NCBI GenBank assembly: GCA_018813805.1
Contig: JAHJAP010000069.1
Coordinates: 1-10,270, forward strand
Source: Patescibacteria group bacterium
GTDB taxonomy: Bacteria; Patescibacteriota; Patescibacteriia; Patescibacteriales; GWC2-42-12
Reading direction: 5' to 3'
Length of the DNA: 10,270 nt
In this document: positions 1 through 10,270 of the stretch, one piece after another
How the letters are laid out: every line of letters begins with the position of its first letter
Position numbering within the stretch: position 1 is the stretch's first letter
Made by a program: the position numbers and the translations under genes
Notes under the pieces: model-generated
What the model saw: only the letters and a program-made list of their open reading frames with translations
Told to the model about the DNA's origin: nothing
Databases searched by the model: none

Positions 1-2
1 AA

Positions 3-137
3 TACGCTAACCAAATCCATATAAGAGCAGCAAGGTTGGCAAATGAAAGACATAACGCAGGAATACAAGCGGGAGATAAAATAAAATATTTATATGTATG
101 TCAAAAATTAAAAATATTATTGCTCGTGAAATTTTAG
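3..137 (+). CDS. possible 3' end of an upstream gene (partial, unidentified)
   Basis: One forward frame is open from the left edge to a TAG at 135-137, overlapping the first 40 bases of eno in another frame. Up to about position 98 the codons look coding-like (many GCA, GAT, GAA, GGA) and the peptide, which includes IHIRAARLANERHNAG and QAGDKIKYLYV, looks like real protein. The last 13 residues are simply eno read out of frame, so the true gene may be truncated or frameshifted near 75-98. The pattern 'H-hydrophobic-R-A-A ... G-D-K-I-K-Y-hydrophobic' faintly recalls the C-terminal region of family B DNA polymerases; this is a weak impression from memory. With only 44 codons visible, it could also be a chance open frame. 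Confidence 0.3.
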   Translation, partial: YANQIHIRAARLANERHNAGIQAGDKIKYLYVCQKLKILLLVKF

Positions 138-1381
138 ATTCACGGGGAAATCCAACAATTGAAACAAAGATTATTTTAAATAATAATATGGAAGTCAAGG
201 CTAGTACACCTTCTGGCGCTTCAACTGGCGCGCATGAAGCAACCGAATTGCGTGACAATGATCAAAGATATGGCGGCTTTGGCGTGTTAAAAGCTATTAA
301 AAATATTGAAAGTAAAATTGTGCCAAAACTAATAGGAATAGATGCAACTAAACAAGAATATATAGACAATTTAATGATAAAATTAGATGGAACAGAAAAT
401 AAAAGCAAATTAGGAGCTAATGCTATTTTGTCAGTTTCTTTGGCTTGCGCGCGCGCTGGTGCATTGGTTACCAAACAAGAATTGTATGAATATATAAATA
501 AAAGTTATGAGTTGCAAGTTACGAATTACAAACTTCCAACTCCTTGTTTTAATGTTTTTAATGGCGGCAAGCATGCTGATACTAATTTGGATTTTCAAGA
601 ATTTATGATTATACCTTATCAGCATTTAGAAAAAAAAGAAAATAAAAGTTTTTGTGAAAAAGTTAGAATGGGAGCAGAAATTTTTCATGAATTAGGCAAG
701 GTATTAAAGCAAGCTGGTTTTGACACTGACGTTGGCAATGAAGGCGGTTATGCGCCAGATATTGTTTCTAGCATTCAAGCAATTGAATTAATTATGGCAG
801 CAGGTATTCGAGCTGGTTATACTGCTGGAAAAGATTTTGGTTTAGGAATTGATGTTGGTTCATCAGGTCTTTATGATCAGCAAACAAAAAAATATATTTT
901 TAAATTAGATAGAGCTTATTTTACTAATACAACTTTAATAGGTCTTTATTATGAATGGTTGAGAAAATATCCAATTATTTATTTAGAAGATGGTTTAGCT
1001 GAAGATGATTGGCAGGGCTGGCATGAATTAACAAAAGAATTAGGCAAAGAATTGCTTGTAGTTGGCGATGATTTATTTGTTACCAACGAACAGCGTTTGC
1101 GACAAGGATTAAAAGAAAAAGTTGCTAATGCTATTATAATTAAGCCAAATCAAGTAGGCACTTTAACTGAAACAATTAATTGTGTAAAATTAGCGCAAAA
1201 GCATAATTATAAAATTATAGTTTCTCATCGTTCAGGCGAAACTGTTGATGATTTTATTGCTGATTTAGCAGTAGCTGTTAATGCTGATTATATTAAAGCT
1301 GGCTCATTGTCACGAGGAGAAAGAATAACAAAATATAACAGGCTTATGGAAATTGAAAATAATTTGAAATTGTTTTTATGA
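98..1381 (+). CDS. eno: enolase (phosphopyruvate hydratase)
   Basis: Converts 2-phosphoglycerate to phosphoenolpyruvate in the cytoplasm; Mg-dependent. At 427 aa it is near the usual length (E. coli 432), with a slightly short C-terminus. The N-terminal domain begins REILDSRGNPTIE (res 10-22) and has the substrate loop PSGASTGAHEA (38-48). Expected barrel residues are present: the general acid E215 in VGNEGGYAP (usually GDEGG, here N), metal ligands D252, E297 (LEDGL) and D324 (GDDLFVTN), base K349 (IIIKPNQVGTLTE), H377 in SHRSGET, and K400 in IKAGSLSR. The usual D-x-A-A-S-E motif after D252 reads D-V-G-S-S-G. Residues about 136-146 are encoded by a heptanucleotide repeat in a length-variable loop. 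The start at 98 is the only ATG that gives a full N-terminus, as an in-frame stop lies at 77-79. No Shine-Dalgarno is visible. The stop overlaps the next start (ATGA), so the two are probably cotranscribed. Confidence 0.97.
   Translation: MSKIKNIIAREILDSRGNPTIETKIILNNNMEVKASTPSGASTGAHEATELRDNDQRYGGFGVLKAIKNIESKIVPKLIGIDATKQEYIDNLMIKLDGTENKSKLGANAILSVSLACARAGALVTKQELYEYINKSYELQVTNYKLPTPCFNVFNGGKHADTNLDFQEFMIIPYQHLEKKENKSFCEKVRMGAEIFHELGKVLKQAGFDTDVGNEGGYAPDIVSSIQAIELIMAAGIRAGYTAGKDFGLGIDVGSSGLYDQQTKKYIFKLDRAYFTNTTLIGLYYEWLRKYPIIYLEDGLAEDDWQGWHELTKELGKELLVVGDDLFVTNEQRLRQGLKEKVANAIIIKPNQVGTLTETINCVKLAQKHNYKIIVSHRSGETVDDFIADLAVAVNADYIKAGSLSRGERITKYNRLMEIENNLKLFL
503..534 (+). repeat. degenerate heptanucleotide repeat inside eno
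   Basis: About four and a half units of a 7-base repeat run through the coding sequence: AGTTATG, AGTTGCA, AGTTACG, AATTACA, then AACT. Since 7 is not a multiple of 3, the protein period is also 7, giving Y-E-L-Q-V-T-N followed by Y-K-L. The reverse complement contains ATTCGTAA, also found in the gpmI-murJ spacer at 4623-4630. It sits in a loop where enolases vary in length, so it should be tolerated. Confidence 0.6.
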
Positions 1382-2973
1382 TTAAAATAGAAAATAAAAA
1401 AAGTATTCTTCCAATGATTCTTATAATTCTTGATGGCTGGGGTATTACAAAACCCGGTCTTGGCAATGCGACAACTTTAGCAAAAACACCAACAATAAAT
1501 GGGTTAACAAAAAAATTTCCTTCAACTGCGCTTTTTGCTCATGGCAAGCATGTTGGATTGTCATCTGAGCAACCAGGCAATAGCGAGGCTGGGCATATGA
1601 ATATCGGCGCTGGCAGAATAATTAAACAAGACTCTGTTATAATTAATAATAGTATTAATGATGGAACTTTTTTTAAAAACCCAGCTTTTATTGAAGTTAT
1701 AAAACATATTAAAAACAATAAAAGCAAACTTCACTTAATGGGCTTGATTTCCAATTGTGCGAGCGCGCATAGCGACCCAAAACATCTTTTGGCTTTGTTA
1801 ACTTTAATTGAAAAATATCAAGTTAAAGAAGTTTATTTACATTTATTTACTGATGGTCGCGATTCCCCAAAATATTCTTCTTTAAAATTAATTCAAGAAA
1901 TAAAAAAGATTTTAAAAAATAATGAATGTATAGCCACTGTAATGGGCAGATTCTATGCCATGGATAGAAAAAAGAAATGGGAAAGAACTGAAAAAGCTTA
2001 TGAAGCCCTAGTTAATGGAATAGGTAAACAGGCAAACAGCGTTGAAGCAGCAATTACAGAAAATTATAATTGTAAAAGAAGTGATGAATTTATTGAACCT
2101 TATATTATTTGTAAGAATGGCAAAATAACACCGCGAATTAGCGATAATGATGGTATTATATTTTTTAATTTAAGGTCAGATCGCGCCAGACAATTAACCA
2201 AAATATTTGTACAAAGAGAATTTTGTGAATTAAATAAAATTTGTTTTAATAGAAAAAAATTTTTAAAAAATGTATGCTTTGTTGCTATGACTGATTTTGG
2301 TCCAGATTTAGGTAGCATTCTAACTGCTTATCCTAGCTCTGATATTAAAAAAACCTTGCCAATGATTCTTAAAAAATTAAAACAGCTTTATTTAGCTGAA
2401 ACTGAAAAATATGCCCATGTTACATATTTTTTTAATGGAGGTTATAGTAATGCCGTTGATGATGAAGTAAGAATGGTTTTGCCATCTCCTGATGTTGGAT
2501 CATATAAAAAAACTCCGATTATGAGTTCTGATAAATTAACAAAGCAAATAATTATGAATTTAATTGGAAAGAAAGATAAAAATCAAAATAACTGGCAATA
2601 TGATTTTACATTGCTTAATTTTGCAGCTCCAGATATGATTGGCCATACCGGGGATTTATCAGCTGGGATTAATTGTTGTCATCAGGTTGATAAATATTTA
2701 GATCAAATAGTTCGGGCTTATCTCAAGGTTAATGGAACAGTTTTAATTACTGCTGATCATGGTAATATTGAAGAAATGATTAATCCAAAAACCGGAGAGA
2801 TTAATACTGAACATTCTGTTAATCAAGTACCTTTTATTATTGTTAATAAACAATTAAAAAATAAAATTAAACTTAGATCAAACGGAATTTTAGCAGATAT
2901 TGCGCCAACTATTTTAGAATTACTTAGTTTAAAACAGCCAAAAGAAATGAGAGGAAAAAGTTTAATAAAATAA
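1378..2973 (+). CDS. gpmI: 2,3-bisphosphoglycerate-independent phosphoglycerate mutase, divergent copy 1
   Basis: Alkaline-phosphatase-superfamily mutase that interconverts 3- and 2-phosphoglycerate through a phosphoserine intermediate. The 531 aa are slightly longer than typical (about 510). Metal and phosphoserine residues are all present: D19 (ILDGWG), S69 (PGNSEAGH), D419 and H423 (PDMIGHTG), D460 and H461 (TADHGN), H479 (EHS). Substrate-side residues are partly kept: H131, R161 (DGRDSP), R191 and R197 (GRFYAMDR), R266 and R269, K344 (ETEKYAHVTYFFNGG). Several usually conserved segments differ from the family and from the next gene: SNCASAHSD for the GGVHSH loop, DRKKKW for DRDxxW, NLRSDRARQ for NFRPDRARQ, and TPIMSS for the usual PEMSA. 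It overlaps eno by four bases (ATGA) and is probably translationally coupled. It is likely a functional metalloenzyme, but substrate preference could have shifted relative to copy 2. Confidence 0.92.
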   Translation: MIKIENKKSILPMILIILDGWGITKPGLGNATTLAKTPTINGLTKKFPSTALFAHGKHVGLSSEQPGNSEAGHMNIGAGRIIKQDSVIINNSINDGTFFKNPAFIEVIKHIKNNKSKLHLMGLISNCASAHSDPKHLLALLTLIEKYQVKEVYLHLFTDGRDSPKYSSLKLIQEIKKILKNNECIATVMGRFYAMDRKKKWERTEKAYEALVNGIGKQANSVEAAITENYNCKRSDEFIEPYIICKNGKITPRISDNDGIIFFNLRSDRARQLTKIFVQREFCELNKICFNRKKFLKNVCFVAMTDFGPDLGSILTAYPSSDIKKTLPMILKKLKQLYLAETEKYAHVTYFFNGGYSNAVDDEVRMVLPSPDVGSYKKTPIMSSDKLTKQIIMNLIGKKDKNQNNWQYDFTLLNFAAPDMIGHTGDLSAGINCCHQVDKYLDQIVRAYLKVNGTVLITADHGNIEEMINPKTGEINTEHSVNQVPFIIVNKQLKNKIKLRSNGILADIAPTILELLSLKQPKEMRGKSLIK

Positions 2974-2988
2974 TAGTTTTAAATGCAA

Positions 2989-3014
2989 AATTTCTAAATT
3001 ATAATTTAGAAATT
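2989..3014. repeat. 26-nt perfect palindrome between the two gpmI genes
   Basis: The sequence from AATTTCTAAAT through TATA to ATTTAGAAATT is its own reverse complement over 26 bases, allowing an 11-bp stem with a 4-base loop. Five T's follow at 3016-3020. It resembles an intrinsic terminator in layout, but the stem has only two G-C pairs and the next start is 12 bases downstream, so strong termination is doubtful. It also reads as 7-base units (AAATTAT at 2996-3002 and again at 3010-3016), linking it to the heptamer repeats in neighbouring spacers. Confidence 0.5.
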
Positions 3015-3025
3015 ATTTTTATATT

Positions 3026-4618
3026 ATGTCTAAAAAACAAAATATTCGTCCTAAGCCAGTAGTTTTAATGGTGTTAGATGGTTGGGGGGTGGCCCAGCCA
3101 TACAGTGGTAATGCTATTACTCAGGCAAATATTCCTAATATTAATAATTATATTGCTCAATATCCTGCAATGACAATTAAAGCTTCTGGCGAAGCCGTTG
3201 GATTGCCTTGGGGCGAGCCTGGCAATAGCGAAGTTGGACATTTAAACTTGGGTTTAGGTAAAATTTTTTATCAAACTTTATCTAAAATTAATAAAACTAT
3301 TAGTGATGATAGTTTTTATCAAAATACAAAACTATTAGCAGCTATTTCTCATATTAAAAAGAATAAAACAAAACTGCATTTATTTGGCCTAGTTTCTAAT
3401 GGTGGAGTACATTCTTCAATTGATCATTTAGAAGCTTTGTTAGTTTTAGCTAAAATGCATGAAGTTAAACAACTTTATATTCATGTTATTTTAGATGGAC
3501 GAGATGCGCCATATAATAGTGGAATTGATTTTATAAAACAAGTTGAGCAAAGTTTAGTAAATAATAAATTGGGTAAAATTGTTACTTTAGTTGGTCGTTT
3601 TTATGCTATGGATAGAGATAATCATTGGGATAGAACAAAAAAAGCTTATGAAGCAATGGTTTTGGGAAAGGGAAATAAAAATCAATCAGTTGTTGCTGCT
3701 ATTGCAGAAAGTTATGAGAAGAAAATTTTTGATGAAGAATTTTCTCCAACAATTATTTGTGAAAATAAACAACCAGAAGGATTAATAGAGGATAATGATG
3801 CTGTTATTTTTTTTAATTTTCGTCCTGATCGCGCTCGGCAAATTACAAAAGCTTTTGTTTTGCCTGGCTTGAATAAATTTAAGCGAGAAAATTTTTTAAA
3901 AAATTTATTTTTTGTTTGTTTTACTGAGTATGAAAAGGCTTTGCCTGTACAAATTGTTTTTGAACCAGAAATAAATGAATTCACATTAGGTGAAACTATA
4001 GCGCGAGCTGGTTTTACTCAATTAAGAATAGCTGAAACGGAAAAATATGCTCATGTTACTTATTTTTTTAACGGTGGGAAAGAAACTAAATCTTTAAATG
4101 AAGATCATATTTTAATACCTTCGCCAAGAGTAGCTAATTACGAAGTAAAGCCTGAAATGTCAGCGCTTGAAATAACTAATAGACTTATTGAAGAAATTAA
4201 TAGTGAAAAGTATGATTTTATTTTAGTAAATTTTGCTAATGCTGATATGATTGGTCACACTGGTAATTTAAAAGCAACTATTCAAGCAATAGAATTTCTT
4301 GATAAGTGTGTTGATAAAATAGTTAAATTAGTTCTTTCTAAAAATGGTTTGATTTTTATTACTGCTGATCATGGAAATGCCGAAAGTATGTTTAATATGC
4401 GAACAAATGCAATAGACAAAGAGCATTCTAATAATCCAGTGCCTTTTATTGTGGTTGGTAAACAATATGAAGGTAAAAATTTAATCAAGCAAGTTGTGCC
4501 AGGGAATGATTTAAGTCTTATTCATCCACAAGGTATTTTATCAGATGTTGCTCCGACTATACTTAAAGCTATGGATATAAATAAACAAGAGGAAATGACA
4601 GGATATAGTTTAATTTAG
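3026..4618 (+). CDS. gpmI: 2,3-bisphosphoglycerate-independent phosphoglycerate mutase, canonical copy 2
   Basis: Same reaction as the preceding gene, 3-phosphoglycerate to 2-phosphoglycerate, feeding enolase. The 530-aa protein follows the family pattern more closely than copy 1: D18 (VLDGWG), phosphoserine S68 (PGNSEVGH), H129 in SNGGVHSSIDHL (the second His of GVHSH is Ser), R159 (DGRDAP), R191 and R197 (GRFYAMDRDNHWDR), R266 and R269 (NFRPDRARQ), K340 (AETEKYAHVTYFFNGG), PSPRVANYEVKPEMSA, D407 and H411 (ADMIGHTG), D448 and H449 (TADHGNAE), and H467 (EHSNNPVPF). Phosphatase and mutase domains are both complete. The two copies align along their whole length but are strongly diverged, so the duplication is old or one copy was acquired. 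This copy is the better candidate for the housekeeping mutase. The ATG at 3026 has no Shine-Dalgarno; the spacer to copy 1 is 52 bases. Confidence 0.95.
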   Translation: MSKKQNIRPKPVVLMVLDGWGVAQPYSGNAITQANIPNINNYIAQYPAMTIKASGEAVGLPWGEPGNSEVGHLNLGLGKIFYQTLSKINKTISDDSFYQNTKLLAAISHIKKNKTKLHLFGLVSNGGVHSSIDHLEALLVLAKMHEVKQLYIHVILDGRDAPYNSGIDFIKQVEQSLVNNKLGKIVTLVGRFYAMDRDNHWDRTKKAYEAMVLGKGNKNQSVVAAIAESYEKKIFDEEFSPTIICENKQPEGLIEDNDAVIFFNFRPDRARQITKAFVLPGLNKFKRENFLKNLFFVCFTEYEKALPVQIVFEPEINEFTLGETIARAGFTQLRIAETEKYAHVTYFFNGGKETKSLNEDHILIPSPRVANYEVKPEMSALEITNRLIEEINSEKYDFILVNFANADMIGHTGNLKATIQAIEFLDKCVDKIVKLVLSKNGLIFITADHGNAESMFNMRTNAIDKEHSNNPVPFIVVGKQYEGKNLIKQVVPGNDLSLIHPQGILSDVAPTILKAMDINKQEEMTGYSLI

Positions 4619-4621
4619 CAT

Positions 4622-4657
4622 GATTCGTAATTCATTTATACATCATTCATCATTCAT
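4622..4657. repeat. heptanucleotide repeat in the gpmI-murJ spacer
   Basis: The 48-base spacer is almost entirely built of 7-base units: GATTCGT and AATTCAT at 4622-4635, an irregular unit, then CATCATT twice plus CAT at 4641-4657. A run of eight T's follows (4659-4666) directly before the murJ ATG. No ribosome-binding site or promoter is recognisable. Confidence 0.65.
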
Positions 4658-4666
4658 GTTTTTTTT

Positions 4667-6307
4667 ATGATAAAACGTTTATTTAATGGAGAAATAAATA
4701 GCATTACTGCGGCAGCGTTATTAATAGGAACGTCTTCTTTGCTTAGTCGTTTTTTAGGAATTTTTCGTGATAGAATTTTGGCTGGACAATTTGGCGCTGG
4801 CGATACCCTGGATATTTATTATGCTGCTTTTCGTATTCCTGATTTAATTTTTAATTTATTAATATTAGGAGCTTTATCAGTTGGTTTTATTCCAATTTTT
4901 ACTAATTTAATTAAACGTCCATTAGAGAGAATTCGTTCTTTATTTAATAATGATCACAAAGAAGCTTGGGAATTAGCTAGTAATGTTTTAAATATTTTAG
5001 GTTTAGGTTTATTAATTTTATGCGGATTAGGAGTAATTTTTGCGCCATTAATTATAAAATTAATTACTCCGGGCTTTAATTTAGAAAAAATGGATTTAAC
5101 TATTAATTTATCTAGAATTATGTTTTTGTCTCCGATTTTTTTAGGGATTTCCGCTGTACTTGGTGGTATTTTGCAATCGTTTAAAAGATTTTTTGTTTAT
5201 TCATTATCCCCGATTTTTTATAATATTGGCATAATTATCGGAGCTTTATATTTAGTACCGATTTGGGGAATTTATGGTTTGGCATGGGGCGTTGTATTGG
5301 GTGCTTTTGCTCATTTTTTAGTTCAATTACCAGCCGTTATAAAATTAGGATTTAAATATTCTTTCAAATTTGATTTTAAAAATAAAAATGTTAGACAAAT
5401 TGGCGCGATAATGGCGCCAAGAACAATGAGCTTGGCTATTTCACAGATTAATTTAGTAGTAATAACTATTATTGCTTCAACTCTTTCTAGTGGGTCATTG
5501 ACAATTTTTAATTTTGCTAATAATTTGCAATTTTTTCCAATTAGTATATTTGGCATTTCTTTTGCCATTGCTGCTTTTCCAACCCTGTCAACAACGGCTT
5601 TTGATAAAAAAAGTTTAGTTAAAAATATTTCTTTAGTAACACGTCAAATTTTATTTTTTATTATACCGGCAACAATACTTTTAATTACTTTGCGAGCCCA
5701 AATTATTCGCGTTATTTTGGGTACAGGGCAGTTTAATTGGCAAGATACTATTTTAACAATTGATACTTTGGGCTTTTTTTCACTATCTCTTTTTGCTCAG
5801 TCATTAATTCCTTTGTTAGTTAGAGTTTTTTATGCTCGGCATGATTCTAAAACGCCGTTTATTGTTGGTTTAATTACATCAATGGTTAATATTTTATTGT
5901 CATTATGGTTGTCTGACTTGTTAGGTATAGCTGGTTTGGCGTTGGCTTTTTCTTTGTCTAATATTCTTAATTTAATAATGCTTTGGTTGATACTGCATTA
6001 TAAAATTGGCTCATTAGATGAATTAAGAATTTTATTTTCTACTATTAAATTTTTTGCCGCAGCAATGGCTTGCGGCGCTGTTATTCAAGGAATGAAATTG
6101 ATTATTTGGCAATATATTGATATGACTAAATTTTGGGGAGTTTTAACTCAAGGTGCAATAGCTGGATTAATTGGTTTTTTTGTTTATTTATTAATTTGTT
6201 TATTTTTGCAAAGCGAAGAATTATTTGACTTTTGGGCTTCAATTAAACGACGTTTGTCCTGGAGCAAGGCAGAAACATCAGATCAAGGCGAGGCGCGAGG
6301 AATTTAG
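4667..6307 (+). CDS. murJ: MurJ/MviN-family lipid II flippase
   Basis: Polytopic inner-membrane protein of the MOP exporter superfamily that moves the peptidoglycan precursor lipid II to the outer face. The 546 aa are rich in hydrophobic segments consistent with about 14 membrane helices. The N-terminal signature is clear: SRFLGIFRDR (res 27-36), FGAGDTLDIYYAAFRIPD (42-59) and LGALSVGFIPIF (67-78). Further family segments are PGFN (135-138), APRTMSLAISQIN (250-262) and FANNLQFFPISIFGISFA (283-300). Against remembered E. coli MurJ, R18, R24 and D39 correspond to R28, R34 and D49, but R52 aligns with F62, and D269-R270 with N285-N286. An Arg at 252 lies in a membrane segment and could partly compensate. 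The charged C-terminal tail (about 525-546) is encoded by a GC-richer patch. The start ATG follows a T8 run with no Shine-Dalgarno. The stop is immediately followed by the next reading frame. Confidence 0.93.
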   Translation: MIKRLFNGEINSITAAALLIGTSSLLSRFLGIFRDRILAGQFGAGDTLDIYYAAFRIPDLIFNLLILGALSVGFIPIFTNLIKRPLERIRSLFNNDHKEAWELASNVLNILGLGLLILCGLGVIFAPLIIKLITPGFNLEKMDLTINLSRIMFLSPIFLGISAVLGGILQSFKRFFVYSLSPIFYNIGIIIGALYLVPIWGIYGLAWGVVLGAFAHFLVQLPAVIKLGFKYSFKFDFKNKNVRQIGAIMAPRTMSLAISQINLVVITIIASTLSSGSLTIFNFANNLQFFPISIFGISFAIAAFPTLSTTAFDKKSLVKNISLVTRQILFFIIPATILLITLRAQIIRVILGTGQFNWQDTILTIDTLGFFSLSLFAQSLIPLLVRVFYARHDSKTPFIVGLITSMVNILLSLWLSDLLGIAGLALAFSLSNILNLIMLWLILHYKIGSLDELRILFSTIKFFAAAMACGAVIQGMKLIIWQYIDMTKFWGVLTQGAIAGLIGFFVYLLICLFLQSEELFDFWASIKRRLSWSKAETSDQGEARGI

Positions 6308-6333
6308 TGCTTGATCAACAATTTGAAATTTTA

Positions 6334-6354
6334 TTTATAATTTATAATTCATTG
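6334..6354. repeat. heptanucleotide repeat at the murJ/ATP-grasp junction
   Basis: TTTATAA occurs twice in tandem (6334-6347), followed by TTCATTG; in another phase the units read AATTTAT then AATTCAT. It lies just before the ATG at 6358, in the position occupied by similar repeats before murJ and between the gpmI copies. This supports treating 6308-6357 as a spacer rather than coding sequence. Confidence 0.5.
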
Positions 6355-6357
6355 TTT

Positions 6358-8733
6358 ATGATAGATAATCAGTTAAGTGGTAAAACAATTCTTTTAGTTA
6401 ATACAGGATCAATTAAGAAAAAATTTATTTTGCAAAAGATAAAAAAGTTCGGTTTGGTTGTTGTTTGTTTAAATAAAGAAAAAAATTGGGCCTGTCCTTA
6501 TGTTGATCATTGGATTTTAGCTGACAATACTAACATTGCTGAGGCGATTCAAGCAATAAGGGAATTTATTTCCAATATTCCTCAAGTAAAAATTGATGGG
6601 GTATTAACATTTTGGGAAGACGATGTTTTGTTAACAGCGAAAATTATAAATAAATTTAATTTTATTGGTGTTGATTTTAATGTTGCCAAGAAAATTAGAA
6701 ATAAATTTTTGTATAGAGAATTTTGCCAAGAGAACAACTTGCCAGCGCCAGAGCATATTTTATTAAAATCAATTGAAGATATACAAAAATTGCCTGAAAC
6801 ATTTAAATTTCCGGTTGTAATAAAACCAGCCTTTGGTTCTAGTAGCGCTTATGTTGTTAAAGCAGATGACAAAGAGCAATTAATTGATACTTATAAGTAT
6901 ATTAAAAAAAATATTTCAATTAATACAGAAAGTTCATTAGTTGAAGGGATGGATATTTTTGTTGAAGAATATATTGCTGGAGATGAAGTTGATATTGATA
7001 TTGTTTTGCAAAATGGTAAAATTAAATTTTATTCAATTACTGATAATTATCAAACCAATGAGCCGTTTTTTATTGAAACAGGTTTTTCAATTCCATCTAG
7101 TTTGTCAAATAAAAATCAACAAGATTTGATTGAAATGGCAGAAGTTAATTTAGAAAAGCTTGGAGTGCAAAATGGCGTAATTCAGTTTGAAGCTAAATCA
7201 ACGAAAAATGGTCCTGTGCCAATAGAAATTAATTTAAGAATGGGAGGGGATGAAGTTTATTCTTTTATTAAAGGCGCTTGGAATGTTGATTTAATCGAAA
7301 GCGCTGTTAAAATTGCTTTAGGTATATATATACCACAAATAAAAAAACTAGAAATGCCGTGTAAGTATATAACAGGAATGGATTTTTTATCTGATAATTC
7401 AGGTGTTTTATCTCAATTAGATATAAATGAAGAAATACATAAAAAAGATTATCTTGAACAATTACATTTTTTTAAAAAAGTTGGGGATCCTATTTTAGTT
7501 CCGCCTGAAGGTTATGAATATTTAGGCTGGATTACAGTATCAGGTCATAGTCTTCCTGATGCGCGAGATAAATTAAAAGAAGCTTTAAAATATATAAAAT
7601 ATGAAGTTGCAAAATTTACTCAAGATTCTTTAATTGGAAAAACATTAAGAAAAAATAGTTTTTCCTATGCTTCACTTAACACTGAAATAATAGTTAAGGC
7701 AGCTAAGATGGAAAAAGTTAAAAAAATAAAAAGAGAAGATCAAAGAAGTTTGCATATTGGTATTGTTGGAAATGCTAATGAAAATGAAGATATTTTATTG
7801 GCAAGGAGTTCATTTGAAATCAGTAAAAATATTATTAAAGCATTAAAAGAAAGAAAATATTGCGTTAGTTTTTTTAATTTTAATAATATAGAAAAAGCTT
7901 TTAATGAACTTAAATCAAGTAATGTTGATTTGGTTTTTAATGTTTGTGAGAAAATTAATAATTCAAGTTTATTAAAACCATGCGCGATTGCTTTATTAGA
8001 TATGCTTCAAATTCCATATATTGGTCCAAATTCATTAATTTTAAGTTTATGCATGGATAAGATTAGAGTAAAAAAATTATTAACTTTTCATAATATACCT
8101 ATTGCAAAATGGGATTATGCCTACGCAATTGATGATGAAATAAATAAAGATTTAGAATTTCCATTAATTGTTAAGCCAGCTAATATTGATAACTCATTTG
8201 GCATTGATAATAAATCTGTTGTAACAGATCAATATGAATTAAAAAAACAATTGAAAAAAGTAATTATTGATTTAAACAGCCCTGCCTTAGTTGAGGAATA
8301 TATAGATGGTGATGAATATAATGTTTCAATTCTTGGGAGTGAAGAAGAAGGTGATCTTAGGGTTTTGCCATTATCACGTTCAATTTTTAAAAATATGCCT
8401 GATAAACAATGGCATATTTATACTTATCAAAAAGAATATGCAAATAATATTATTATACAACAACCAGCAAAAAATATTAATAAAAAATTAGAAACTTTAA
8501 TTACGGAAATAGCTTTAGATACTTACAATATTTTTGATTGTCAAGACTATGCTAGTATTAAAATTAGAGTGGATAAAAATGACAATCCTTATGTTTTAGA
8601 AATTAATCCAAGCCCTTCACTAATTCATCACAACAATTGTCTTTTTAAAGTCGCAAAATTGATACGTATGGAATATGGGGATTTACTTGAGGAAATAATT
8701 ACTATGGCAATTAAACGCTATCAGCAAAAATAA
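6358..8733 (+). CDS. fused double ATP-grasp ligase (amino-acid ligase-like + D-Ala-D-Ala ligase-like)
   Basis: Residues are numbered from the alternative GTG at 6307 (808 aa); the preferred ATG at 6358 is residue 18. Module 1 (about 26-450) resembles carboxylate-amine ligases of the BacD/carnosine synthase type: N-terminal strand KTILLVNTG, ATP-site K173 in VVIKPAFGSSSA, FVEEYIAGDEVDIDI (218-232), Mg-binding IQFEAKS and PIEINLRMGGD (E295, E307, N309, R311), then a C-terminal lid-like part with GWITVSGHSLPDAR (407-420). Module 2 (about 482-808) resembles D-alanine-D-alanine ligases: DLVFNVCE (541-548), IPYIGPNS (569-576), MDK (583-585), K623 in PLIVKPANIDNSFGI, LVEEYIDGDEYNVSIL (661-676), DYASIKIRVD and PYVLEINPSPSL (E765, N767). 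Each module appears to retain an ATP site, suggesting two successive ATP-dependent amide or peptide bond formations; substrates are unknown. No signal peptide or membrane segment, so cytoplasmic. The GTG at 6307 overlaps the murJ stop and has GAGG at 6297-6300, but residues 1-17 come from the repeat spacer, so I prefer 6358. Confidence 0.88.
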   Translation: MIDNQLSGKTILLVNTGSIKKKFILQKIKKFGLVVVCLNKEKNWACPYVDHWILADNTNIAEAIQAIREFISNIPQVKIDGVLTFWEDDVLLTAKIINKFNFIGVDFNVAKKIRNKFLYREFCQENNLPAPEHILLKSIEDIQKLPETFKFPVVIKPAFGSSSAYVVKADDKEQLIDTYKYIKKNISINTESSLVEGMDIFVEEYIAGDEVDIDIVLQNGKIKFYSITDNYQTNEPFFIETGFSIPSSLSNKNQQDLIEMAEVNLEKLGVQNGVIQFEAKSTKNGPVPIEINLRMGGDEVYSFIKGAWNVDLIESAVKIALGIYIPQIKKLEMPCKYITGMDFLSDNSGVLSQLDINEEIHKKDYLEQLHFFKKVGDPILVPPEGYEYLGWITVSGHSLPDARDKLKEALKYIKYEVAKFTQDSLIGKTLRKNSFSYASLNTEIIVKAAKMEKVKKIKREDQRSLHIGIVGNANENEDILLARSSFEISKNIIKALKERKYCVSFFNFNNIEKAFNELKSSNVDLVFNVCEKINNSSLLKPCAIALLDMLQIPYIGPNSLILSLCMDKIRVKKLLTFHNIPIAKWDYAYAIDDEINKDLEFPLIVKPANIDNSFGIDNKSVVTDQYELKKQLKKVIIDLNSPALVEEYIDGDEYNVSILGSEEEGDLRVLPLSRSIFKNMPDKQWHIYTYQKEYANNIIIQQPAKNINKKLETLITEIALDTYNIFDCQDYASIKIRVDKNDNPYVLEINPSPSLIHHNNCLFKVAKLIRMEYGDLLEEIITMAIKRYQQK

Positions 8734-8782
8734 AAAAATTAATTAAGTTTATTAAATAAATAGTTTGTTGGGAATGCAATAT

Positions 8783-8811
8783 TTGACCTAAATTTTTAAT
8801 TTTGGTAAATT
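8783..8811 (+). promoter_or_regulatory. possible sigma70-type promoter
   Basis: TTGACC at 8783-8788 (five of six to TTGACA) is followed after exactly 17 bases by TAAATT at 8806-8811 (four of six to TATAAT). It lies in the longest spacer of the window, about 70 bases upstream of the ATG at 8882, where a separate transcription start is expected. A better -10 box, TATACT at 8812-8817, has 23-base spacing and is less likely with this -35. AT-rich DNA yields such matches by chance. Confidence 0.3.
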
Positions 8812-8812
8812 T

Positions 8813-8828
8813 ATACTCGAAAGAGTAT
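8813..8828 (+). promoter_or_regulatory. GAAA-tetraloop hairpin in the leader of the 8882 gene
   Basis: ATACTC (8813-8818), GAAA (8819-8822) and GAGTAT (8823-8828) form a perfect 6-bp stem with a GNRA-type loop closed by C-G, a stable RNA motif. A shorter similar element, CTC-AAAA-GAG, lies at 8842-8851. The stretch 8829-8870 is clearly richer in G and C than the surrounding spacer. Together they may be a structured 5' leader. No poly-T tract follows, so it is not a terminator, and I recognise no riboswitch class. Confidence 0.3.
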
Positions 8829-8881
8829 TTGGCGACAGACCCTCAAAAGAGCATTTCTAATAAGCCCATAAAAATAGTGAT

Positions 8882-10216
8882 ATGAATAATATAATACAAA
8901 AAAATAGAACAACACAAAAAATTTTTGAATTAAAAAAATTTTTATTTATTTCTTTTGAAAGTTTAAGCGGAGATTTGGCATGGAGTTTAGTTAAGGAGGG
9001 CCATGAAGTAAAAGTATATATTGAGGCTAAAAGCGATGTTGATGTTTATGATGGTTTTGTAGAAAAAGTTAGTTCTTGGGAAGATTATAAAGACTGGGCT
9101 GATGTTATAATATTTGATGATGTTGGCTTTGGCTCAATAGCTGAAAAATTACGAAAACAAGGAAAGTTAGTTATTGGTGGCAGTATTTATACTGATGAAT
9201 TAGAAATAGATCGAGAATTTGGCCAGTCTGAAATGAAAAAAAACGGGATTAATGTTTTACCAAGTTGGCAATTTAATAATTATGAAGACGCTATTGAATT
9301 TATTAAAACTAATCCCAGCCGTTATGTTTTTAAGCCTAGCGGCAACGTATCTTCTAACAGCAAGGGATTATTATTTTTAAGTCAAGAAGAAGATGGAAGG
9401 GATTTACTTGAGATTTTAGAACAGAACAAGGATGTTTGGAAGAAAAAAGCGCCTTTATTTTTACTTCAAAAATATATTACAGGCGTAGAAATAGGTGTAG
9501 GAGCTTTTTTTAATGGTCATGATTTTATTTATCCGATCAATGTAAATTTTGAGCATAAAAGAATTTATCCTGGTAATATTGGACCATTTGCAGGAGAAAT
9601 GGGAACATTAATGTATTGGAGTTCGCCTAATAATTTATTTAAAGTAACAGTAGAAAAAATGTTGCCTGCATTACAGCAATCAGGCTATATTGGTTATGTT
9701 GATATTAATTGTATTGTTAATGGTAAAGGGGTTTATCCCTTGGAATTCACAACTAGATTTGGTTACCCTACAATTCCAATTCAATTAGAAGGTATTCTTA
9801 CTCCGACAGGAGAGTGGTTGTACAAAATGGCTAAAGGCGAAAATTTTGAATTAAAAACTAAAAAAGGTTTTCAAATCGGCGTTAGAATTTTAGTAGAATC
9901 ATATTTTTCAAAAGATAACGATTCGGAAATTGTTAAATTGTATCATGATTTAGCAATTTCTTTTAAAAATCATAATAATTTAGATGGGGTGCATATTGAA
10001 GATGTTAAAAACGATAAAGGCATTTGGCGCGTTGCTGGTGCTTCAGGATGTTTATTGGTGATTACTGGTGATGGCACTACCGTAGAAGATGCTAGGCGGT
10101 TAGTTTATAATAGAGTAAAAAATATTATTATTCTTAATATGATTTATAGAACAGATATTGGTTCTAGATGGGCAATTGACAGCGATCGTCTTCATACTTG
10201 GGGTTATTTAAGATAA
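8882..10216 (+). CDS. PurD-like ATP-grasp ligase of unknown substrate
   Basis: A 444-aa cytoplasmic ATP-grasp protein with the layout of glycinamide ribonucleotide synthetase (PurD): an N-terminal Rossmann-like part (FLFISFESLSGDLAWSL, res 20-36; KEGHEVKVYI, 38-47), the segment LVIGGSIYTDELEIDREFG (96-114), ATP-site K151 (YVFKPSG), LLQKYITGVEIGVGAFFNG (194-212), FEHKRIYPGNIG and GEMGT (223-242), VDINCIVNGKGVYPLEFTTR (273-292) with metal-type E288, and a C-terminal domain with AGASGCLLVITGDGTT (385-400) and YRTDIGSR (422-429) as in PurD. The N-terminus differs from typical PurD (no GxGGREHA), and LEFTTRFGYP replaces the usual EFNxRFGDPE, losing the Asn and Asp. No purine genes are nearby. I therefore call it a PurD-related ligase, with true PurD activity unlikely but possible. 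The ATG at 8882 lacks a Shine-Dalgarno and is separated from the preceding gene by 148 bases, so it may have its own promoter. Confidence 0.85.
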   Translation: MNNIIQKNRTTQKIFELKKFLFISFESLSGDLAWSLVKEGHEVKVYIEAKSDVDVYDGFVEKVSSWEDYKDWADVIIFDDVGFGSIAEKLRKQGKLVIGGSIYTDELEIDREFGQSEMKKNGINVLPSWQFNNYEDAIEFIKTNPSRYVFKPSGNVSSNSKGLLFLSQEEDGRDLLEILEQNKDVWKKKAPLFLLQKYITGVEIGVGAFFNGHDFIYPINVNFEHKRIYPGNIGPFAGEMGTLMYWSSPNNLFKVTVEKMLPALQQSGYIGYVDINCIVNGKGVYPLEFTTRFGYPTIPIQLEGILTPTGEWLYKMAKGENFELKTKKGFQIGVRILVESYFSKDNDSEIVKLYHDLAISFKNHNNLDGVHIEDVKNDKGIWRVAGASGCLLVITGDGTTVEDARRLVYNRVKNIIILNMIYRTDIGSRWAIDSDRLHTWGYLR

Positions 10217-10270
10217 TTTTTCATGAAAAGCATTTTGTGGTTATTCTAAGCAAAAAATTTATATAATATA

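Follow-up and report, generated by a model that had tools for sequence, protein, structure and literature searches.

A Patescibacteria gene that joins an L-amino-acid-ligase module to a Ddl-like module with a changed catalytic centre

We analysed a 10,270-nucleotide stretch of DNA, hereafter the window, from a Patescibacteria group bacterium (assembly GCA_018813805.1, contig JAHJAP010000069.1, positions 1 to 10,270 of the forward strand), in which an earlier note made from the sequence alone had picked out one protein with two different ATP-grasp ligase modules. The gene occupies 6307..8733 on the forward strand, which also carries every module, codon and flanking gene located by coordinates with two dots below. 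It is one uninterrupted open reading frame (ORF) of 808 codons, counted from a GTG at 6307 that overlaps the stop codon of MurJ. The ATG at 6358, which would give about 791 amino acids, is the likelier start, because the residues at positions 4–13 are absent from the other 119 of the best 120 fusion sequences and M18 is nearly invariant in an alignment of 72 fusion sequences; with a GAGGA stretch immediately 5′ of it, the GTG may nevertheless serve as a start. Pfam models placed ATP-grasp_4 and LAL_C2 on residues 131–434 and Dala_Dala_lig_C on residues 607–799 (E = 1e-31), so that the two modules are not copies of each other, as the earlier note had held. The ORF is a true fusion of an L-amino-acid-ligase module and a module like D-Ala-D-Ala ligase (Ddl), and not a chance join, because 728 homologues exist in many Patescibacteria lineages and in metagenome-assembled genomes (MAGs) of DPANN. 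The linker between the modules spans approximately residues 438–479 (7618..7743). The AlphaFold2 model of the fusion had a mean predicted local distance difference test score (pLDDT) of 88.3 and a predicted TM-score (pTM) of 0.59; this pTM is low and residues 446–463 are weakly predicted (pLDDT below 50), so that the model does not fix how the two modules sit relative to each other.

Module 1 (approximately residues 20–437; 6364..7617) is an ATP-grasp module of the L-amino-acid-ligase type. Its C-terminal LAL_C2 subdomain (residues 361–434; 7387..7608; PF18603, E = 3.9e-9) scored 37.1 bits against a curated cut-off of 29.4. The closest solved structure by sequence, for query residues 80–420, was the L-amino-acid ligase BL00235 (3vot; E = 7.5e-26). 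The same structure took ranks 1 and 2 among the fold matches of the AlphaFold2 model, with a TM-score by target length (TMt) of 0.85–0.87, a root-mean-square deviation (rmsd) of 3.2–3.6 Å and 22% identity; the best 50 matches to this model of the fusion were led by ligases of the module-1 type. K173, E220, E227, E295, E307, N309 and R311 are all present, and we take K173 to be the ATP-grasp lysine and E295, E307 and N309 to be metal ligands. These seven residues are unaltered in 170 of 186 distinct fusion sequences, the exceptions being G or A at N309 in 16 sequences, Q at E220 in 2 and Q at R311 in 1. Among the best 120 sequences, six of the seven are invariant and N309 is kept in 118.

Module 2 (approximately residues 480–806; 7744..8724) is of the Ddl type and has a changed catalytic centre. 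D-Ala-D-Ala ligases were the closest solved structures by sequence for query residues 563–803 or thereabouts, and the Pfam model of the Ddl C-terminal domain (PF07478) gave 110.5 bits against a cut-off of 24, whereas the scores for two NCBIfam Ddl subfamilies stayed below their cut-offs (TIGR01205, 135.6 of 245.65 bits; NF002378, 174.9 of 243 bits). In an alignment with the Ddl structure 3r23 and the best 120 fusion sequences, the window copy departs at three positions: codon 710 (8434..8436) encodes E where 3r23 and 113 of the 120 have K; codon 750 (8554..8556) encodes S where 3r23 and 105 have R; and codon 752 (8560..8562) encodes K where 3r23 has D and 108 have E. We take the Ddl residues at these positions to serve as catalytic lysine, oxyanion arginine and first metal ligand. 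The fold presumably has three metal ligands, here at positions 752, 765 and 767; E765 and N767 are retained, together with the sampled ATP-site residues K585, K623, E664 and E670. The metal site of module 2 is therefore damaged while its sampled ATP-site residues are kept, which by the earlier note's own standard counts in part against its reading. Neighbouring K709 might partly replace the lysine lost at 710. At the nine positions of module 2 that were sampled, 142 of the 186 distinct sequences agree throughout with the most frequent residues, which are Ddl-like, and the window copy differs at three of the nine. On sequence grounds, its module 2 is most likely non-catalytic yet still folded. 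The earlier note had named the two module types correctly (BacD type first, Ddl type second), as the Pfam, solved-structure and fold matches agree, and K173, E307, N309, K623, E765 and N767 all stand where it had placed them; its description of two complete modules holds for module 1, with its intact motifs, and fails for module 2, with E710, S750 and K752.

S750 and K752 are common to a clade of five proteins (P0002–P0006, of which P0002 is the window copy). All five are 791–808 amino acids long with unaltered module-1 motifs. Position 765 has changed further in four of them, to D in P0003 and P0004 and to K in P0005 and P0006. In P0007 and P0008, the relatives that follow the clade, residue 752 is still E, residue 750 is N or S and residue 710 is D, and because of this partial change the loss of the module-2 centre looks stepwise. 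Module 2 has also diverged faster than module 1 within the clade: in nine of its ten pairs the ratio of module-2 to module-1 distance was 1.5–2.3 (module 1, 0.09–0.13; module 2, 0.17–0.23, so that module-1 distances are about half), the tenth pair, P0003/P0004, being nearly identical. For pairs without clade members, the median ratio was 0.77–0.93 across five distance bins. Over the wider family, at least 11 changes at residue 750 and at least 14 at residues 752, 765 and 767 were counted on a quickly made tree in which many branches are weak; of its 97 rows, 92 are distinct. Fourteen rows had been added to this tree, 13 on account of their changed residues, and the shares of changed rows (34/97 and 21/97) are no rate owing to this selective addition; the changed rows L065, L066 and L077 have gaps or doubtful alignment near residue 710 or 750.

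The fusion family is large and its distribution is patchy. Among 7995 scored candidates, 728 proteins matched the fusion at an E-value of 0.001 or better, and the best 120 of these, the window copy included, all carry PF13535 and PF07478 (one, P0102, is a partial record of 702 amino acids). The closest other protein in the 72-sequence alignment is 86% identical to the window copy. A scan of a species-genome collection gave at least 493 relatives, 80 of which came from many Patescibacteria lineages and from MAGs of Woesearchaeota, Nanoarchaeota and Diapherotrites, with one match each in a MAG labelled Bathyarchaeota and a MAG labelled Omnitrophota, in either case on a contig no longer than about 5 kb. 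Closer to the window, the fusion was present in 8 of 61 genomes around its own, itself included, one copy being split over two contigs. At an E-value of 1e-60 it was found in 17 of 379 genomes of the phylum, again including the window genome; of these 17, one (G202) matched in the Ddl-like part only and in two (G118 and G146) the alignment reached no further than model position 672.

A different fusion of about 800 amino acids, with two tandem Ddl-like modules, was seen in three genomes (G005, G008 and G010) of the same family of genomes (L102:5114-7525, L103:5703-8084 and L104:2140-4686). The L102 protein exceeded the TIGR01205 cut-off with 314.7 bits over the whole protein in three stretches, and we take the ORF adjoining these double-Ddl fusions to be seryl-tRNA-synthetase-like.

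The genes around the fusion in other genomes were counted in 65 entries with a flank of at least 3 kb on at least one side, a neighbour being scored when it lay on the same strand within 6.5 kb; gene calls were the longest non-overlapping ORFs. Identical proteins and loci with less than 3 kb on both sides had been dropped, the window was included, and one locus (L031) entered twice for its two fusion copies. We quote this set because a larger one of 88 loci contains six genomes entered twice (L002/L014, L003/L019, L004/L025, L006/L027, L007/L045 and L008/L062, the first five pairs recognised by identical proteins and the last by coordinates), while noting that the removal of duplicates discarded, for some clusters, the copies with longer flanks (L014, L025, L027 and L045). 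MurL-like genes were neighbours in 20 of the 65 entries, LysA-like genes in 17, GNAT genes in 15, a third ATP-grasp gene in 14, a standalone gene like L-amino-acid ligases in 9, and relatives of L-Ala-D/L-Glu epimerases (dipeptide-epimerase-like) in 7. An absent neighbour is weak evidence, since no locus extends more than 10 kb from the fusion and many are cut shorter by a contig end. The alignments used as search queries were partial, covering 13 of 120 proteins (A1), 15 of 26 MurL-like ORFs (A2), 12 of 17 (A4) and 15 of 21 (A5). Eleven of the 15 aligned MurL-like members matched the NCBIfam MurL model (best E = 9.6e-12), and among the 61 relatives strong MurL-like matches occurred in three genomes, all of which carry the fusion. 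The recurrence of MurL-like, LysA-like, epimerase, GNAT and ATP-grasp neighbours therefore suggests that the fusion clusters belong to an unstudied small-peptide pathway.

Several of these neighbours have features of their own. One MurL-like protein (L025:9844-11223) has a predicted fold resembling the PP-loop proteins QueC and QatC, and its family (alignment A2) has invariant cysteines. The fold comparison covered mainly residues 135–430 or so, with TM-scores by query length of 0.32–0.41 for the best five, and a search of solved structures by sequence with the MurL-like alignment returned two matches only, at E = 0.09, which we did not use as evidence. The predicted fold suggests that MurL, too, could be an adenylating enzyme of the PP-loop type. 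In the third-ATP-grasp neighbours (alignment A4, e.g., L084:9567-10895), Q159 is invariant at what is presumably the position of the usual ATP-grasp lysine, and E287, N289 and R291 are kept. SET-domain proteins, which are uncommon in bacteria, also recur by the fusion (group c13 in 7 and c22 in 6 of the 88 loci, duplicates included; e.g., L002:3961-4707 and L015:6748-7206).

Changes at residue 750 tended to coincide with an extra adjacent ATP-grasp gene, which was present in 13 of 20 entries with a changed residue and in 7 of the other 45 (Fisher p = 2.5e-4, raw). Raw tests gave p = 0.0016 for a change at any of five residues and p = 0.03 for residues 710, 752, 765 and 767. When relatedness was taken into account, an average of 4.4 of 8 independent pairs at residue 750 pointed the same way, 0.8 the opposite way and 2.9 showed no difference, and the association was not significant (median p = 0.22); median p-values were 0.625 for the metal residues 752, 765 and 767 and 1 for residue 750 against epimerase genes. 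A separate ATP-grasp neighbour that relieves module 2 of its task thus fits the raw counts and fails the relatedness-aware test, and we treat it as a trend and not as a result.

In the window, the fusion lies between MurJ (4667..6307) and a gene for a 444-amino-acid PurD-like ATP-grasp protein (8882..10216), the latter being the only ATP-grasp gene to adjoin it. In the same-family genomes G003 and G009, the order of enolase, two phosphoglycerate mutases, MurJ and the PurD-like gene is kept without the fusion, with extra ORFs in G003 and with MurJ directly adjoining the PurD-like gene in G009; the fusion was therefore gained or lost at this locus. The tandem phosphoglycerate mutase (iPGM) genes of the window (1378-2973 and 3026-4618) both score above the TIGR01307 cut-off, and the pair is kept in both of these genomes. 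We considered whether the PurD-like gene is coupled to the fusion, which it directly follows in L024 and L050 as well, and dropped this idea in view of the gene's presence in three fusion-free relatives (G003, G009 and G011) and of its very large family, matched by 6526 of 8000 scored candidates; adjacency is all that links the two genes. The PurD-like protein scored 88.5 of the 288 bits of the NCBIfam purD cut-off. Despite this low model score, its family, a large one in Patescibacteria, frequently carries the name phosphoribosylamine-glycine ligase. The window protein has E-F-T in place of E-F-N, which we take to be the metal motif of glycinamide ribonucleotide (GAR) synthetases. Matches to the third-ATP-grasp alignment in the window genome (G000) were weak and fell twice in the fusion, once in the PurD-like gene and once in another place.

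From what was observed (the domain architecture, the spread of the family, the altered residues, the faster module-2 divergence and the recurrent neighbours) we favour, with a probability of roughly 0.6, the reading that the fusion is an L-amino-acid ligase with no catalysis from its Ddl-like half in the lineage of the window and a probable two-step ligase elsewhere. It would act as a cytoplasmic peptide ligase. Judging by homology and intact motifs, module 1 would convert the carboxylate of an amino acid to an acyl phosphate with ATP and join it to the amine of a second amino acid. In most of the family the Ddl-derived module 2 probably adds a further unit to this product, whereas in the window lineage, with its metal and oxyanion centre lost, it most likely binds, holds or regulates only. 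In other genomes, the product would probably be stereo-inverted by the MurL-like ATP-dependent epimerase, the L-Ala-D/L-Glu-type epimerase or both, before LysA-like decarboxylases and additional ATP-grasp ligases trim or lengthen it, the end product being presumably a small peptide with an inverted residue, unrelated to D-Ala-D-Ala. More tentatively, the fusion could form the core of an undescribed non-ribosomal small-peptide pathway, patchy in Patescibacteria and DPANN, with dipeptide formation by the L-amino-acid-ligase module, C-terminal inversion by the MurL-like protein, acting as an adenylating enzyme of QueC-like fold, and extension by the Ddl-like module or a separate ATP-grasp protein; module 2 would tend to lose its catalytic centre when such a separate extender is present, and the window copy would be a case of this.

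A number of observations weigh against these proposals. The window genome, which is 93% complete, has no MurL-like or LysA-like relative (in a search that did not extend to GNAT, epimerase, aminotransferase or SET partners), and the pathway proposed for other genomes may therefore not run here. Of the eight fusion genomes among the 61 relatives, five, including that of the window, lack a MurL-like match, and weaker partial matches occur in the fusion-free G013 and G032. The MurL-like proteins also stay far below the cut-off of the MurL_Xanthmoales model (30.3 against 700 bits for L025), and in 20 of the 65 entries no tracked neighbour is present. As to divergence, the 5–95% range of the background distance ratio was 0.46–1.43 at module-1 distances of 0.02–0.1 (23 pairs) and 0.43–2.1 at distances of 0.1–0.2 (88 pairs); since this range reaches 2.1, only some of the clade pairs stand out, and the distance pairs are not independent of each other. 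The altered residues of module 2 could reflect new chemistry rather than loss, and the low pTM of the predicted model leaves the modules without a firm arrangement.

Among the alternatives, activity of both modules in the window copy survives best and is still unlikely. The intact frame, the retained K585, K623, E664, E670, E765 and N767 and the Ddl-like set in most of the distinct sequences fit it, and on the last of these grounds the two-step, tripeptide-like product that the earlier note had envisaged is plausible for the family. For the window copy the same product is unlikely: it has K at the Ddl metal-ligand position 752, S for the Ddl arginine and E for the Ddl lysine, position 765 has become K or D in the four other members of its clade, and module 2 diverges faster in that clade. 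Loss of the whole gene in this lineage, with a recently acquired or isolated copy left without a pathway and module 2 decaying first, appears improbable. The missing MurL-like and LysA-like partners, the changed module 2 and the fusion-free syntenic MurJ/PurD-like loci of G003 and G009 would agree with it, whereas the intact 808-codon frame, the full lengths and unaltered module-1 motifs of all five clade members and module-1 distances about half those of module 2 would not. We regard as equally improbable that the protein is a two-module ligase of the carbamoyl-phosphate-synthase or purine type and not a peptide ligase. Its tandem ATP-grasp modules, its PurD-like downstream neighbour and the fold search, in which the GAR-synthetase-like 4dim ranked third and carbamoyl phosphate synthetase chains took ranks 4–13, point that way; the synthetase alignments, however, had an rmsd of about 27 Å where single-module 3vot had 3.2–3.6 Å, LAL_C2 is present, the CPSaseII_lrg model gave 61.3 of 1027 bits, and the neighbours elsewhere resemble amino-acid and peptide enzymes. 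Least probable of all is that the fusion makes D-Ala-D-Ala for peptidoglycan in place of a missing Ddl: the window genome, in which Ddl-type matches are confined to the fusion, nonetheless has MurJ and a MurF-like protein (223.5 of the 288.6 bits of the TIGR01143 cut-off), whereas it is the Ddl-like half that is damaged, seven fusion genomes of the same order (G016, G017, G018, G036, G045, G046 and G059) carry a separate Ddl-type match, the family is present in MAGs of DPANN, which to our knowledge lack murein, and five same-family genomes (G001, G003, G004, G006 and G007, two of them at least 95% complete) have neither a PF07478 match nor the fusion, so that the lack of a Ddl does not go together with the fusion. 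A murein role for the fusion is unlikely overall; an attempt to judge it by Ddl and Mur gene counts was dropped, as several fusion-free relatives also lack Ddl and the window assembly, with only two Mur-ligase matches, consists of 121 contigs.

The genomes of Patescibacteria and DPANN are very small, and few specialised metabolites are known from either group. The peptide ligases, epimerase relatives and decarboxylases that recur by the fusion in many of their lineages suggest that they make a small peptide of their own, perhaps, as a speculation, for host contact or the cell surface. The family offers proteins that could be expressed for tests (e.g., L025 and L081, each with a cluster) and repeated changes of the catalytic centre of one module for study. 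Both halves of the fusion are known kinds of enzyme, and the surrounding pathway may be new: we found no description of the fusion or its cluster in the open-licence PMC literature, which does not contradict the view that this combination is not a characterised enzyme. The mechanism of MurL, which uses ATP and releases AMP, is called unclear in one study (PMC5808125); a QueC-like PP-loop fold, if true of MurL itself, would explain both properties.

Several known systems bear a likeness to the fusion. In the alternative peptidoglycan pathway of MurD2 and MurL, a ligase adds L-Glu, which an ATP-dependent epimerase then inverts (PMC8788868, PMC5808125). The likeness lies in a ligase gene and a MurL-like gene close together on one strand, as in the 20 fusion entries above; the fusion ligase, however, is of the L-amino-acid-ligase and Ddl types and not a Mur ligase, the MurL-like proteins are far below the MurL cut-off, and a murein role is disfavoured in this comparison because of the DPANN members and the separate Ddl-type genes. 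Graspetide clusters of Candidate Phyla Radiation bacteria share ATP-grasp peptide chemistry and the same broad bacterial group, and they are described as modifying ribosomal precursor peptides (PMC8939145), whereas the fusion matches L-amino-acid-ligase and Ddl models (precursor peptides were not searched for here). The large subunit of carbamoyl phosphate synthetase, CarB, likewise has two tandem ATP-grasp modules, but its halves arose by internal duplication according to PMC11915815, while those of the fusion match different families and its carbamoyl phosphate synthetase score is low, as given above. D-Ala-D-Ala ligase (TIGR01205, PF07478) resembles module 2 over about 300 residues, from which the window copy differs in falling below the TIGR01205 cut-off and in the replacement of the Ddl lysine, arginine and metal-ligand aspartate. 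The L-amino-acid ligases BL00235 (3VOT), RizA (4WD3) and BacD/YwfE (3VMM, 3WNZ) have the fold, the ATP-grasp motifs and LAL_C2 in common with module 1; they are single-module proteins of about 390–475 residues, behind which the window fusion adds a module of the Ddl type.

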